Shown: piece after piece, positions 11,890 through 28,093 of the stretch
Layout of the letters: every line of letters begins with the position of its first letter
Numbering within the stretch: position 1 is the stretch's first letter
Assembly: GCA_022822005.1 (NCBI GenBank)
Contig: JAJECO010000026.1
Location: 1-64,000 of the forward strand
DNA length: 64,000 nucleotides
Reading direction: 5' to 3'
Source of the DNA: Candidatus Poribacteria bacterium
GTDB lineage: Bacteria; Poribacteria; WGA-4E; PCPOR2b
The notes under the pieces: generated by a model
What the model saw: the letters and a program-made list of their open reading frames with translations, nothing else
The model's database searches: none
What the model was told of the DNA's origin: nothing
Position numbers and translations under genes: made by a program

Positions 11890-11966
11890 TTTAGTTGGGA
11901 AGGGGCTGCTGATAATAACTGACCTCAATCAAGGAGACCGATTGGAGAACAAAGGAGGCATAGCAG

Positions 11967-12923
11967 ATGCAACGGAGAACTAATCTCGCCCATTTGATTT
12001 TAGCTGTCGTTGTCGTGTTGGTGTTGACACTCCCGATGGTATGCATTGAGGCACAGGCACGGATCGCCTTAATGTCTGATAGGGATTGGAACTGGGAAAT
12101 CTATGTGATAGACAACCATGGGGACAATCAGCGAAATCTCACTAATAATCCTGCTGATGATAGGGACCCCTCATGGTCGCCGGACGGCAAACGGATTGTC
12201 TTCAGTTCTGATAGGAATGGGAACTGGCAAATCTACGTGATGGACGCCGATGGGGAAAATCAGCAAAACCTTTCCAACAATGATTTTGACGACAAGGAAC
12301 CTTCATGGTCGCCGGACGGTAAACAGATTGCCTTTGTGTGGGACTGGCAAATCTACGTGATGGACGCCGATGGGGAGAATCGGCTAAACCTCACCAATAA
12401 TAGGGGACATACGGACAGATCACCCTCATGGTCGCCGGACGGTAGGCGCATTGTCTTTGCTGCCTCTAGGAGGGAGGACGCTGGGAACATAGAAATCTAT
12501 GTGATGGACGCCGATGGGGAGAATCAGCGAAACCTTACTATTAGTGACCGTACTGACGAGGAACCCTCATGGTCTCCTAACGGTAAGCGCATTGCTTTTA
12601 CTTCCACGAAGGATGGGGGAGACCAGGAAATCTATGTGATGGACGCCGATGGACGGAATCAGCGAAACCTCACCAATCACCCCGATAGGGACTATTCACC
12701 CTCATGGTCGCCCGACAGTAAACGGATTGCATTTGTGTCGAATCGGACGAGGGATTTTAATCCAGACATCTATGTGATGGACGCCGATGGAGGCAATCCG
12801 CGAAACCTCACCAATCACCCCGAGGACGAGAAAGCTCCTGCATGGTATAACGCTGTTCTTTCAGTGACTCCCGCCGGTAAGACCCTCACGATGTGGGGAC
12901 AGCTCAAACGGGTTGACCAATAA
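11967..12923 (+). CDS. Exported PD40/TolB-like six-bladed propeller, paralogue 1
   Basis: A 318-residue protein. A signal peptide spans roughly residues 1-30 (basic start, hydrophobic core, ending near CIEAQA). Next come five canonical PD40 blades, each with a W-S-P-[DN]-[GS]-[KR]-[RQ]-I core, a YVMDADG-type loop and an N-L-T element, then a degenerate sixth blade (KAPAWYNAV). This predicts a six-bladed beta-propeller outside the cytoplasm, similar to the TolB C-terminal domain but without TolB's N-terminal domain. The protein ends with KTLTMWGQLKRVDQ, a motif shared with its two paralogues and the LamG protein. AAAGGAGG precedes the ATG. Likely a binding or scaffold protein; the ligand is unknown. 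Confidence 0.85.
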   Translation: MQRRTNLAHLILAVVVVLVLTLPMVCIEAQARIALMSDRDWNWEIYVIDNHGDNQRNLTNNPADDRDPSWSPDGKRIVFSSDRNGNWQIYVMDADGENQQNLSNNDFDDKEPSWSPDGKQIAFVWDWQIYVMDADGENRLNLTNNRGHTDRSPSWSPDGRRIVFAASRREDAGNIEIYVMDADGENQRNLTISDRTDEEPSWSPNGKRIAFTSTKDGGDQEIYVMDADGRNQRNLTNHPDRDYSPSWSPDSKRIAFVSNRTRDFNPDIYVMDADGGNPRNLTNHPEDEKAPAWYNAVLSVTPAGKTLTMWGQLKRVDQ

Positions 12924-12990
12924 CCACCATTATTGAAAAAACGGTGTTTAAGGATAAAAGACCGATTTGACAATAGAGGAGGAATAACGG

Positions 12991-14031
12991 ATGCAACGGA
13001 GATATAATCTCGCCCATTTGGTTTTAGCTAACGTTATAGTCTTGGTGCTGACTCCGATGATGGTAGTCGTTGGGGCACAGGCACGGATTGCCTTCAGCTC
13101 TAATAGGGATGGGGATAGGAACTCTGAAATCTACCTGATGGACGCCAATGGGCGGAATCAGCGAAACCTCACCAATCACCCCGATAGGGACGTAGCACCC
13201 TCATGGTCTCCCGACGGTAAACGGATTGCCTTCTCGTCTGAGAGGGATGGGCACCCTGACAGAAGACCCGGTTGGATTACTTCTGAAATCTATGTGATGG
13301 ATGCCGACGGCGGTAATCAGCAAAACATCACCAATCATCCTAATTCTGACCTCTCTCCCGCATGGTCACCGGACGGCAAACGGATTGTATTCGGGTCTGA
13401 TAGGGATGAGATCCTTGACATACACGGTTTCCCCACCTATGAAATCTACGTGATGGATGCCGATGGGGAGAATCCTCAAAACATCACTAATAATCGCCAT
13501 GATGACTGGGCTCCCTCATGGTCACCGGACGGCAAGCGTATTGTCTTCATATCTTATAGGGAGGGGCACTTTATAGGCGATTTTGAATTACTCACTTCTG
13601 AAATCTACGTGATGGACGCTGATGGCGGGAATCAGCAAAGACTCACTGAAAACCGCAAGAATGATGAGGCACCCTCATGGTCACCCGATGGCACACGCAT
13701 TGTCTTCTCATCCGATAGGAAGGGGGACTTTATAAATAATGAAATCTACCTGATGGACGCCGATGGAAAGAATCAACAAAGACTCACTGAAAATCGCCAT
13801 GAGGATGGGGCTCCCTCATGGTCTCCTGACGGCAAGCGTATTGTCTTCGTGTCTGAAAGGGATGGGAACCCTGAAATCTACGTGATGGATGCCGATGGGG
13901 GGAATCCTCAAAACCTCACCAATAATCCGGGGGGTGATTTTGGTCCTGCATGGTTTGCTCCTGCTTTTGCCATTGCCCCCTCCGGCAAAAAAATTACGAT
14001 GTGGGGACAGCTCAAACGGGTTGACCAATAA
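12991..14031 (+). CDS. Exported PD40/TolB-like propeller, paralogue 2
   Basis: A 346-residue close paralogue of the preceding protein with the same architecture: signal peptide ending near VVGAQA, five canonical W-S-P-D-G blades, a degenerate sixth blade (GPAWFAPAF), and the C-terminal motif KKITMWGQLKRVDQ. It differs by longer loops in blades two to four (for example DRDEILDIHGFPTYEIYVMD). The 67-base gap from paralogue 1 is almost identical to the gap before paralogue 3, and both genes have AGAGGAGGAATAACGG before the ATG. This points to recent tandem duplication of a gene-plus-leader unit. The three genes are probably co-transcribed. Confidence 0.85.
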   Translation: MQRRYNLAHLVLANVIVLVLTPMMVVVGAQARIAFSSNRDGDRNSEIYLMDANGRNQRNLTNHPDRDVAPSWSPDGKRIAFSSERDGHPDRRPGWITSEIYVMDADGGNQQNITNHPNSDLSPAWSPDGKRIVFGSDRDEILDIHGFPTYEIYVMDADGENPQNITNNRHDDWAPSWSPDGKRIVFISYREGHFIGDFELLTSEIYVMDADGGNQQRLTENRKNDEAPSWSPDGTRIVFSSDRKGDFINNEIYLMDADGKNQQRLTENRHEDGAPSWSPDGKRIVFVSERDGNPEIYVMDADGGNPQNLTNNPGGDFGPAWFAPAFAIAPSGKKITMWGQLKRVDQ

Positions 14032-14098
14032 CCGCTATTATTGAAAAAACGGTGTTTAAGGATAAAAGACCGATTTGACAACAGAGGAGGAATAACGG

Positions 14099-15106
14099 AT
14101 GCCACGGAGATATAATCTCGCCCATTTCATTTTAGCTAGCGTTATAGTCTTGGTGCTGACTCCGATGATGTTAGTCGTTGGGGCACAGGCACGGATTGCC
14201 TTCGTGTCTGATAGGGATAGGAACTCTGAAATCTACCTGATGGACGATGATGGAAAAAATCAGCGAAACCTCACCAATCATCCCGATAGGGACTTAGCAC
14301 CCTCATGGTCGCCCGATGGCACACGCATTGCCTTCATGTCGGAGAGGGATGGGAACGGTGAAATCTACATGATGGATGCCGACGGGGGCAATCAGCAAAA
14401 CCTCACTAACAATCGCGCTGGTGACTGGAATCCCTCATGGTCACCGGACGGCAAACGGATTGCATTCGTGTCTGATAGGGATGGGATCCTTGACATACAC
14501 GGTTTCCCCACTTCTGAAATCTACGTGATGGATGCCGATGGGAAGAATCCGCAAAACCTCACTAACAATCGCGCTGGTGACTGGTCTCCCGAATGGTCCC
14601 CTGACGGTAAACGCATTGTGTTCATGTCTTATAGGGAGGGGCACTTTATAGGCGATTTTGAAGACACCACTTCTGAAATCTATGTGATGGACAACGATGG
14701 GGGTGATGAACAGAGACTCACTGAAAATCGCAAGAATGACAGGGGGCCCTCATGGTCCCCTGACGGTAAACGGATTGCCTTTTCCTCTGATAGGAAGGGG
14801 GACTGGCTAAATTATGAAATCTATGTGATGGACGACGATGGCGGTAATCTACAAAAACTCACTGAAAATCGCAAGAATGACGGGGGACCCTCATGGTCCC
14901 CTGACGGTAAACGGATTGCCTTTTCCTCTGATAGGGGTGGGAACCGGCAAATCTACGTGATGGACACCGACGGGGGAAATCAGCAACAACTCACCAATCA
15001 TCCGAGGAATAATATTGGTCCTGCATGGTTTGTTCCTGCTTTTGCCGTTGCCCCCGCGGGCAAAAAGTTTACCATGTGGGGACGGCTCAAACAGGTTGAC
15101 CGATAA
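14099..15106 (+). CDS. Exported PD40/TolB-like propeller, paralogue 3
   Basis: A 335-residue third copy: signal peptide ending near VVGAQA, five W-S-P-D-G blades, degenerate sixth blade (GPAWFVPAF) and C-terminal motif KKFTMWGRLKQVDR. It is closer to paralogue 2 than to 1, sharing the long loops in the middle blades (HGFPTSEIYVMD; GHFIGDFE) and the leader sequence. Some loop positions change Asp-Ala-Asp to Asp-Asp-Asp or Asp-Asn-Asp, which could alter ligand or calcium contacts. It is the last gene of the set, and a small hairpin overlaps its stop codon. Confidence 0.85.
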   Translation: MPRRYNLAHFILASVIVLVLTPMMLVVGAQARIAFVSDRDRNSEIYLMDDDGKNQRNLTNHPDRDLAPSWSPDGTRIAFMSERDGNGEIYMMDADGGNQQNLTNNRAGDWNPSWSPDGKRIAFVSDRDGILDIHGFPTSEIYVMDADGKNPQNLTNNRAGDWSPEWSPDGKRIVFMSYREGHFIGDFEDTTSEIYVMDNDGGDEQRLTENRKNDRGPSWSPDGKRIAFSSDRKGDWLNYEIYVMDDDGGNLQKLTENRKNDGGPSWSPDGKRIAFSSDRGGNRQIYVMDTDGGNQQQLTNHPRNNIGPAWFVPAFAVAPAGKKFTMWGRLKQVDR

Positions 15107-26897: not shown

Positions 26898-27307
26898 ATC
26901 ATAAAACGCAGAATAGCAAACATTTAACTCTGTCGATCTGCTATCAGGTAGGACTTACGCAGTTGAACACTCAAAGCTTTGTAGTTCGGCGATTCATCGC
27001 CGCAGCGCACCCTTTCCAATGTCCGATGAATCGGACAACTACAGTAGGGGCTTAGGTTTGTAGTAGGGCGATTTATCGCCCTACTACAAACTGAACTGCG
27101 TAACTCCTAATCAGGTATGAAAATTGCGCTTATGTGAGTGTGTCCTTAACTTGGCAGGAGCGATTGCCCGTCAATTGGGGAAAAGATTCAGCTCCCACCC
27201 GTTGCACTTTGCTCTGCCGCACCGAGATGGGCATTCAAAGTGTACCAAGTGTACCAAGTCGTGCAATCCTCATATAGCAAGGCAAACCGAGTGAGAAGGG
27301 GGAAATC
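26898..27307. other. Intergenic region carrying a MITE-like element
   Basis: 410 bases without a gene. The left part (26949-27109) is a short inverted-repeat element with a target duplication. The right part has two adjacent GTGTACCAA copies (about 27240-27258) and the leader of the LamG gene. Confidence 0.6.
26949..27109. mobile_element. 161-base MITE-like element with terminal inverted repeats
   Basis: The left end TAGGACTTACGCAGTT (26949-26964) and the inverse of the right end (27094-27109, TAGGAGTTACGCAGTT) match at 15 of 16 positions. ATCAGG flanks both sides (26943-26948 and 27110-27115) as an apparent 6-base target duplication. Inside is a perfect hairpin with 16-base arms (27057-27072 and 27075-27090) and smaller GCGAT/ATCGC palindromes. 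No coding capacity is present, so it would need a transposase supplied elsewhere. The GGACTTACGCA end resembles termini I associate with bacterial IS elements, but I cannot name the parent. Confidence 0.75.
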
Positions 27308-28093
27308 ATGTGCATTAGTTTTATTTCGCGTATTGCTGTATATGGGTTGCCAATTGTATTGCTGGGCATAGTATGCCTACCCTTTCAAGGCATCGCTGAA
27401 GAACCACCAGCAGGCGTTTTCAGTCCTCGCCCCGGCGAATTTCTTTCTGCAGACAATCCACAGGTTTTTGATCGCAATTTCGCAGATGGATTCACGATTG
27501 AAATCTGGTTATTTCTCGCTGGCAAAGCAGATGTCCAAGAGGATTGGGTGCTGTTTAGCAAAAAAGGAAGCTACTGGGCTGAAATTAGAAGCACAGGGCC
27601 ATCATGGGGCGCGCAAATAGATGTCTATCATAAAGGGCCAGACGGCAGCTCGCATCTCCGCGGGGGGTTCAAATCCAAAAAGTTGAATCAGTGGTTTCAC
27701 ATCGCACTACAAAATCAGGGGGAGGCATCCTCCGTGTTTTTTGATGGAAATGAGAGGTTTGGTAGCGGCGCTGAACCCAATCTAGGAAAACTTGTCCGCA
27801 CAGGAAACCCGTTAATCATCGGTTGGAGGCAAAGGCCGGATAATTCGCCGCAGGAAATGTGGATCGATCAGGTGCGTGTTTCGAGAACGCTCCGTTACCC
27901 CGGCAAGCCTTCAAGACCATTACTGGTAGATAAGGAAACACTCGCGCTATGGAATTTTGATGAAGGACTAGGAGCACGTCGCTACGCGGAGGCTTCAGGT
28001 AAGAGGTATACACTCAACAGACATAGTCCTCTTGCCGTTGATAAAAAAGAAAAGCTGACGACAGTATGGGCGGAAATCAAGAAAAACGAATAA
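27308..28093 (+). CDS. Exported LamG/concanavalin-like domain protein
   Basis: 261 residues. A signal peptide covers about 1-31 (hydrophobic core IVLLGIVCLPFQGIAEE). The rest is one LamG-like jelly-roll: FTIEIWLFLAG, NQWFHIALQNQG, SVFFDGNERFGSG, NPLIIGWRQRP, MWIDQVRVSRTLRYP and a terminal LALWNFDEG are the recurring elements of this fold. Such domains usually bind carbohydrate or protein outside the cell. The chain ends EKLTTVWAEIKKNE, which lines up with the C-terminal motif of the three PD40 proteins. It is 59 bases upstream of the YibE/F-like gene and may be in the same transcript. Confidence 0.75.
   Translation: MCISFISRIAVYGLPIVLLGIVCLPFQGIAEEPPAGVFSPRPGEFLSADNPQVFDRNFADGFTIEIWLFLAGKADVQEDWVLFSKKGSYWAEIRSTGPSWGAQIDVYHKGPDGSSHLRGGFKSKKLNQWFHIALQNQGEASSVFFDGNERFGSGAEPNLGKLVRTGNPLIIGWRQRPDNSPQEMWIDQVRVSRTLRYPGKPSRPLLVDKETLALWNFDEGLGARRYAEASGKRYTLNRHSPLAVDKKEKLTTVWAEIKKNE

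Follow-up and report, generated by a model that had tools for sequence, protein, structure and literature searches.

An Intact MITE with the Ends of a Short IS701-like Insertion Sequence Downstream of uvrC in a Candidatus Poribacteria Genome

Anatomy of the Element

The window, i.e., the whole stretch of 64,000 nucleotides of Candidatus Poribacteria DNA that was analysed, contains a short sequence with inverted ends located 51 bp past the stop codon of uvrC, which raises the question of whether it is a mobile element and, if so, how and when it came to this site. A sequence-only reading had described it as a complete MITE-like element with 16-base inverted ends, and these ends were reproduced at the positions given in Table 1, the left (TAGGACTTACGCAGTT) and the right one (AACTGCGTAACTCCTA) being inverted repeats that agree at 15 of 16 positions. 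The ATCAGG said to flank both sides directly was likewise recovered, while for the inner hairpin the perfect arms and the 2-base loop were borne out and only the arm length needed correction, from 16 bp to 17 bp. Smaller palindromes are nested within the imperfect inverted repeat. A search for the same layout, with a 6-bp direct repeat around inverted ends that agree at 15 of 16 positions and lie 80–400 bp apart, returned a single case in the window, whereas 20 mononucleotide-shuffled windows gave none, and the end pattern, with up to three mismatches, occurs within the window only at the two ends of the MITE.

Table 1. Features of the MITE and of its target site, in window positions.
Feature	Position	Strand	Supporting observation
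Complete MITE, 161 bp, 48% GC, without an ORF ≥60 aa	26949..27109	.	Family copies; empty site
Left target site duplication copy, 6 bp, ATCAGG	26943..26948	.	Single ATCAGG at the G004/G005 empty site
Left terminal inverted repeat TAGGACTTACGCAGTT, C-type end	26949..26964	+	Family copies begin exactly here
Imperfect 20-bp inverted repeat, arms 26980-26999 and 27024-27043	26980..27043	.	Conserved in sibling copies
Perfect hairpin, 17-bp arms, 2-base loop	27056..27091	.	36-nt single-hairpin form of the 60-nt double-hairpin module
Right terminal inverted repeat TAGGAGTTACGCAGTT (minus-strand reading), G-type end	27094..27109	-	Identical to the end of the G002 parent IS
Right target site duplication copy, 6 bp, ATCAGG	27110..27115	.	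Direct repeat; empty site

The element has the properties by which MITEs are recognized, since it is short (about 50–600 bp being the usual range), carries no transposase gene, is bounded by terminal inverted repeats and a target duplication, has many dispersed copies, and shares its ends with transposase-bearing insertion sequences (L107, L108, L109 and L136–L143), which come from congeners and from other phyla, the own genome holding only remnants. AT-richness is a usual, non-defining MITE trait, and it was not found here, with a GC content of 48.4% for the element against 49.7% for the window. The MITE-like reading was supported by the empty sites, the many copies and the matching IS ends described below, and the element was confirmed as a genuine MITE, complete and belonging to a short IS701-like insertion sequence.

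Copy Number and Target Duplications

A total of 62 matches to the MITE were obtained from its own assembly (6.0 Mb in 97 contigs), many of which begin or end exactly at the two ends of the element, with the best match covering the full length at 91% identity. The end pattern TAGGASTTACGCA, with at most one mismatch, gave 230 matches in this assembly against 26 for the reversed control, and the longer end pattern TAGGASTTACGCAGTT gave 114 against one. Each of the five other members of the genus had 47–131 matches to this longer pattern, and most of the order had fewer. The genome-wide copy search, which had been proposed as a check on the element, thus uncovered a whole family.

The copy statistics are based on retrieved stretches rather than on the entire assembly, and from these stretches 45 distinct copies with two good ends were obtained, ranging from 89 to 364 bp in length. 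Exact target duplications were observed in 26 of the 45 copies (20 with 5 bp and six with 6 bp), and the number of duplications ≥5 bp expected when right flanks were shuffled among the copies (2000 shuffles) had a mean of 0.85 and a largest value of 5. The 6-bp duplications are true 6-bp registers, since a 5-bp duplication extended by a chance match would have passed the 5-bp comparison, and these copies fail it. The 6-base duplication claimed earlier is right for the window copy, although family-wide the length is either 5 or 6 bp and not a fixed 6. All six 6-bp duplications were seen in copies that pair a C-type with a G-type end, and all nine scored duplications in copies with two C-type ends were 5 bp, both being small numbers.

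Two long end-bounded elements were also found in the own genome, one of 1062 bp at C35:101764-102825 (L051:3765-4826) and one of 752 bp at C22:159116-159867 (L052:2117-2868), which share their outer sequence and an internal region where TGTCACAAAATGTCACATA repeats abound. They were rejected as autonomous copies and look like larger non-autonomous forms, because neither contains a transposase-sized reading frame.

Empty Sites and Time of Insertion

The region around uvrC was examined in eight relatives. Two congeners (G004 and G005), which align at 83–84% over the stretch, carry TGTTATCAGGTATGAAAATTGCGC with one ATCAGG and without the element, and the window minus the element and minus one ATCAGG has this same order. 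Since both congeners hold the empty site with a single ATCAGG, the insertion and its 6-bp target duplication are established, and the empty site that had been named as the confirming observation was found twice. The site of G001 is likewise empty, with AGCAGG in place of ATCAGG, and no element was seen in the more diverged spacer after uvrC in G002 and G003, the latter being the closest relative (92% identical over uvrC). The MITE is absent from the uvrC site in all five other genomes of the genus, so the insertion is, among the genomes compared, confined to the lineage of the window, barring precise loss elsewhere. A lack of further copies or of matching IS ends, or fixation of the element in distant relatives, would have spoken against the sequence-only reading, and none of these was encountered.

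The same reading had suggested recent or ongoing movement. "Recent" holds only in the sense that none of the other five congeneric genomes has the insertion. The closest match in the own genome is 91% identical, and ongoing movement is unsupported because of this 91% and because the assembly contains only broken transposase remnants. It is possible that repeat copies are missing from this fragmented assembly.

Directly past the insertion site, the spacer GGTATGAAAATTGCGCTTATGTGAGTGTGTCC (window 27112-27165), which precedes a gene at 27308, occurs only once in the window. It is strongly conserved at the corresponding position in G001, G004 and G005 and might act as a leader or regulatory region.

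The Parent Insertion Sequence and Its Classification

A decayed piece of a DDE transposase was found in the own genome at C77:4506-5045, with internal stop codons and its 5′ part missing, and the frame of this remnant stops inside an exact copy of the MITE end. Better copies were obtained by searching the order with this piece, its stops written as X. The insertion sequence of G002 (L107) is 1047 bp long, has TAGGAGTTACGCAGTT at both ends and a duplication of ATCAGC, and encodes a transposase of 333 aa; that of G003 (L108) is 1039 bp long, with one base of the end changed (TAGGAGTTATGCAGTT) and a duplication of TACTT; and that of G006, from another genus (L109), is 1044 bp long, with a duplication of AAAGGC and a transposase frame split in two. 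Open DDE transposase frames in insertion sequences of ~1.04 kb were observed in two congeners, G002 and G003. In addition, L136 in the Candidatus Poribacteria record JAJEAL010000107.1 has the length, ends and duplication of the G002 copy and an identical transposase, and the same 16-base end was found in relatives from Electronema, Pyrinomonadaceae, Armatimonadetes, Thermoflexus and Thermus records. The proposed search for an IS with the same ends hence succeeded with L107, L108 and L109, and the congener copies, with matching ends and open frames, support the proposal that the transposase is encoded elsewhere. The own assembly contains no intact transposase of the parent kind, only broken remnants, and other PF01609 transposases of this genome whose flanks were scanned (C49, C95, C54 and C1) had no convincing copy of the end nearby. 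In L107, the insertion sequence adjoins a gene resembling the repeat array at window 11935-15029, a long array of diverged repeats of ~132–159 nt that reads ...EIYVMDADG.N..NLTN..., like TolB/WD40-type propeller repeats.

The parent transposase matched NF049921 (NCBIfam IS701_2, IS701 family transposase) with 397 bits, above the cut-off of 250, and the main IS701 model NF033540 with 99 bits, below the cut-off of 150. Its likeness to the IS701 family (PMC2266710; NF049921) lies in the NF049921 match, which places the transposase among the kin of that family, and in the matches to Pfam DDE models. Classic IS701 elements, however, are 1400–1550 bp long with 4-bp duplications (PMC2266710), whereas the parent differs in both respects, with 1039–1047 bp and 5–6 bp. 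Because of its ~1.04 kb and its 5–6 bp duplications, the parent is called IS701-like by its protein and not classic IS701. The IS1634 family (1500–2000 bp, 5–6 bp duplication) fits by its duplication and was rejected on length and on the lack of any IS1634 model among the profile matches. ISAba11 is an element of ~1.1 kb placed in an IS701 branch. Its duplications are 5 bp (PMC7885321), in keeping with the 5–6 bp of the parent, and the likeness, drawn from its description, serves as a lead only.

The Inner Hairpin and Its Module

Sibling copies carry a 60-nt module, GTTTGTAGTA-GGGCGATTTATCGCCC-GTCCGGAC-GCGCAATGAATTGCGC-TACTACAAAC, which forms a double hairpin inside an outer stem, and the 36-nt single hairpin was observed only in the window element and its 91% relative, each retaining a different hairpin. 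The double form minus 24 bp gives exactly the window hairpin sequence, which makes the perfect hairpin a probable deletion product, and the order of events would have run from the double to the single hairpin by this 24-bp loss. On both strands, the MITE folds much more stably than shuffled sequences do (z about −9). No promoter-like or terminator-like signals are attached to the MITE, and no Rfam families were found in the window.

A 28-base search for further perfect hairpins returned only the window copy, and the module was therefore searched by its half. Its pattern consists of GTTYGTAGTAG, small hairpins with ATTYAT loops, and CTACTACRAAC. Searching with the half-module gave 94 matches in the own genome and 181 in G050, which belongs to a distant genus in the same order, whereas the reversed controls gave no match. 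Fifteen of 30 own-genome loci lie between two MITE ends, eight near one and seven near none, and none of 30 G050 loci lies between two ends; this comparison was centred on the middle of each locus, with loci cut by a contig end possibly misplaced. The module was also found inside elements with other ends in other genomes, such as TAGTAGTCTGTCC (L083) and ATTAATTCGGTAAT (L082), which lack convincing target duplications and therefore provide a lead only. Overall, the module is dispersed across the order, including outside the MITE family (L079, L082, L083, L088–L090, L204 and L210). We tentatively consider that the module might itself be a mobile or selected palindrome, common to MITE families with unrelated ends.

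Mechanism of Movement and Alternative Explanations

From these comparisons of sequences, the MITE was very probably mobilised in trans by the DDE transposase of an IS701-like insertion sequence of ~1.04 kb and inserted behind uvrC. The 16-bp ends would be the putative binding and cleavage sites of this transposase, which, supplied in trans, would have moved the MITE to its site 51 bp past the uvrC stop, with a staggered cut at insertion duplicating ATCAGG, after the lineage of the window had split from the sampled members of the genus. We infer the IS701-like transposase as the mover, and its source copy in this lineage has presumably decayed or is missing from the assembly; the perfect inner hairpin would be dispensable for movement. 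This mechanism in trans is supported by the anatomy of the MITE, its multi-copy family, the empty site, the near-identical ends and the same duplication lengths. No sequence common to the MITE and the parent beyond the ends is evident, and descent by simple internal deletion is unsupported.

Also counting against the mechanism are the lack of an intact transposase copy in the own assembly and the left end of the MITE, which carries C at a position where both ends of the G002 insertion sequence carry G. A second IS701-like lineage, whose ends are C-type (CAGGACTTACGCA) and which G019 exemplifies with ~1.09 kb and a 5-bp duplication, might instead have moved the MITE, alone or in turn with the first. 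Many family copies carry C-type ends, as does the left end in the window, and G019 holds about two dozen such IS copies, the one examined having a duplication of CATAT. However, the same-genus insertion sequence with G-type ends matches both the longer shared end TAGGASTTACGCAGTT and the 6-bp duplication, the G019 end (CAGGACTTACGCATTTTT) has a different base after GCA, and no insertion sequence of the C-type lineage was recovered from the own assembly, which leaves a C-type mover unlikely. It is far less probable that the MITE has been retained because its hairpin stabilises or terminates transcripts behind uvrC; its strong folding on both strands and its location so close after the uvrC stop would suit such a role, but inverted repeats by themselves yield strong folding, the other five genomes of the genus lack the MITE at this site, and neither a terminator-like site nor an Rfam match was found. 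A chance arrangement of unrelated short repeats, for which it can only be said that each repeat is short on its own, has a negligible probability given the shuffled windows and the multi-copy family, and was already refuted by the empty sites. Movement in trans by the ~1.04-kb IS701-like transposase thus stands as the best explanation.

Significance and Comparison with Known Systems

The MITE is an ordinary hitch-hiking transposable element, whose only somewhat unusual aspect is the occurrence of its module beyond the family. A high-copy MITE family is hereby documented, together with its parent insertion sequence, in uncultured Poribacteria-related genomes, along with a clean empty site and a bracket on the time of insertion. 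The end TAGGAGTTACGCAGTT, retained across several phyla, offers a handle for finding the short IS701-like branch and its MITEs, and the module in elements with other ends offers a testable lead on the origin of MITE interiors. Our literature search returned no paper on MITEs in Poribacteria, and the MITE end sequence was found in none of the papers searched.

The known system compared here is MITEAba12 of Acinetobacter, an AT-rich (78%) element with 9-bp duplications that was caught moving (PMC6382973). Both elements are short and gene-less with 16-bp inverted ends that differ by one base, and in both the duplication length equals that of the parent, which is ~1 kb long and resembles its MITE only at the ends. 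They differ in base composition and duplication length, with 78% AT and 9 bp for MITEAba12 against 48% GC and 5–6 bp for the window MITE. The window MITE also carries internal hairpin modules, and it is known from its sequence alone, whereas the movement of MITEAba12 was observed directly.
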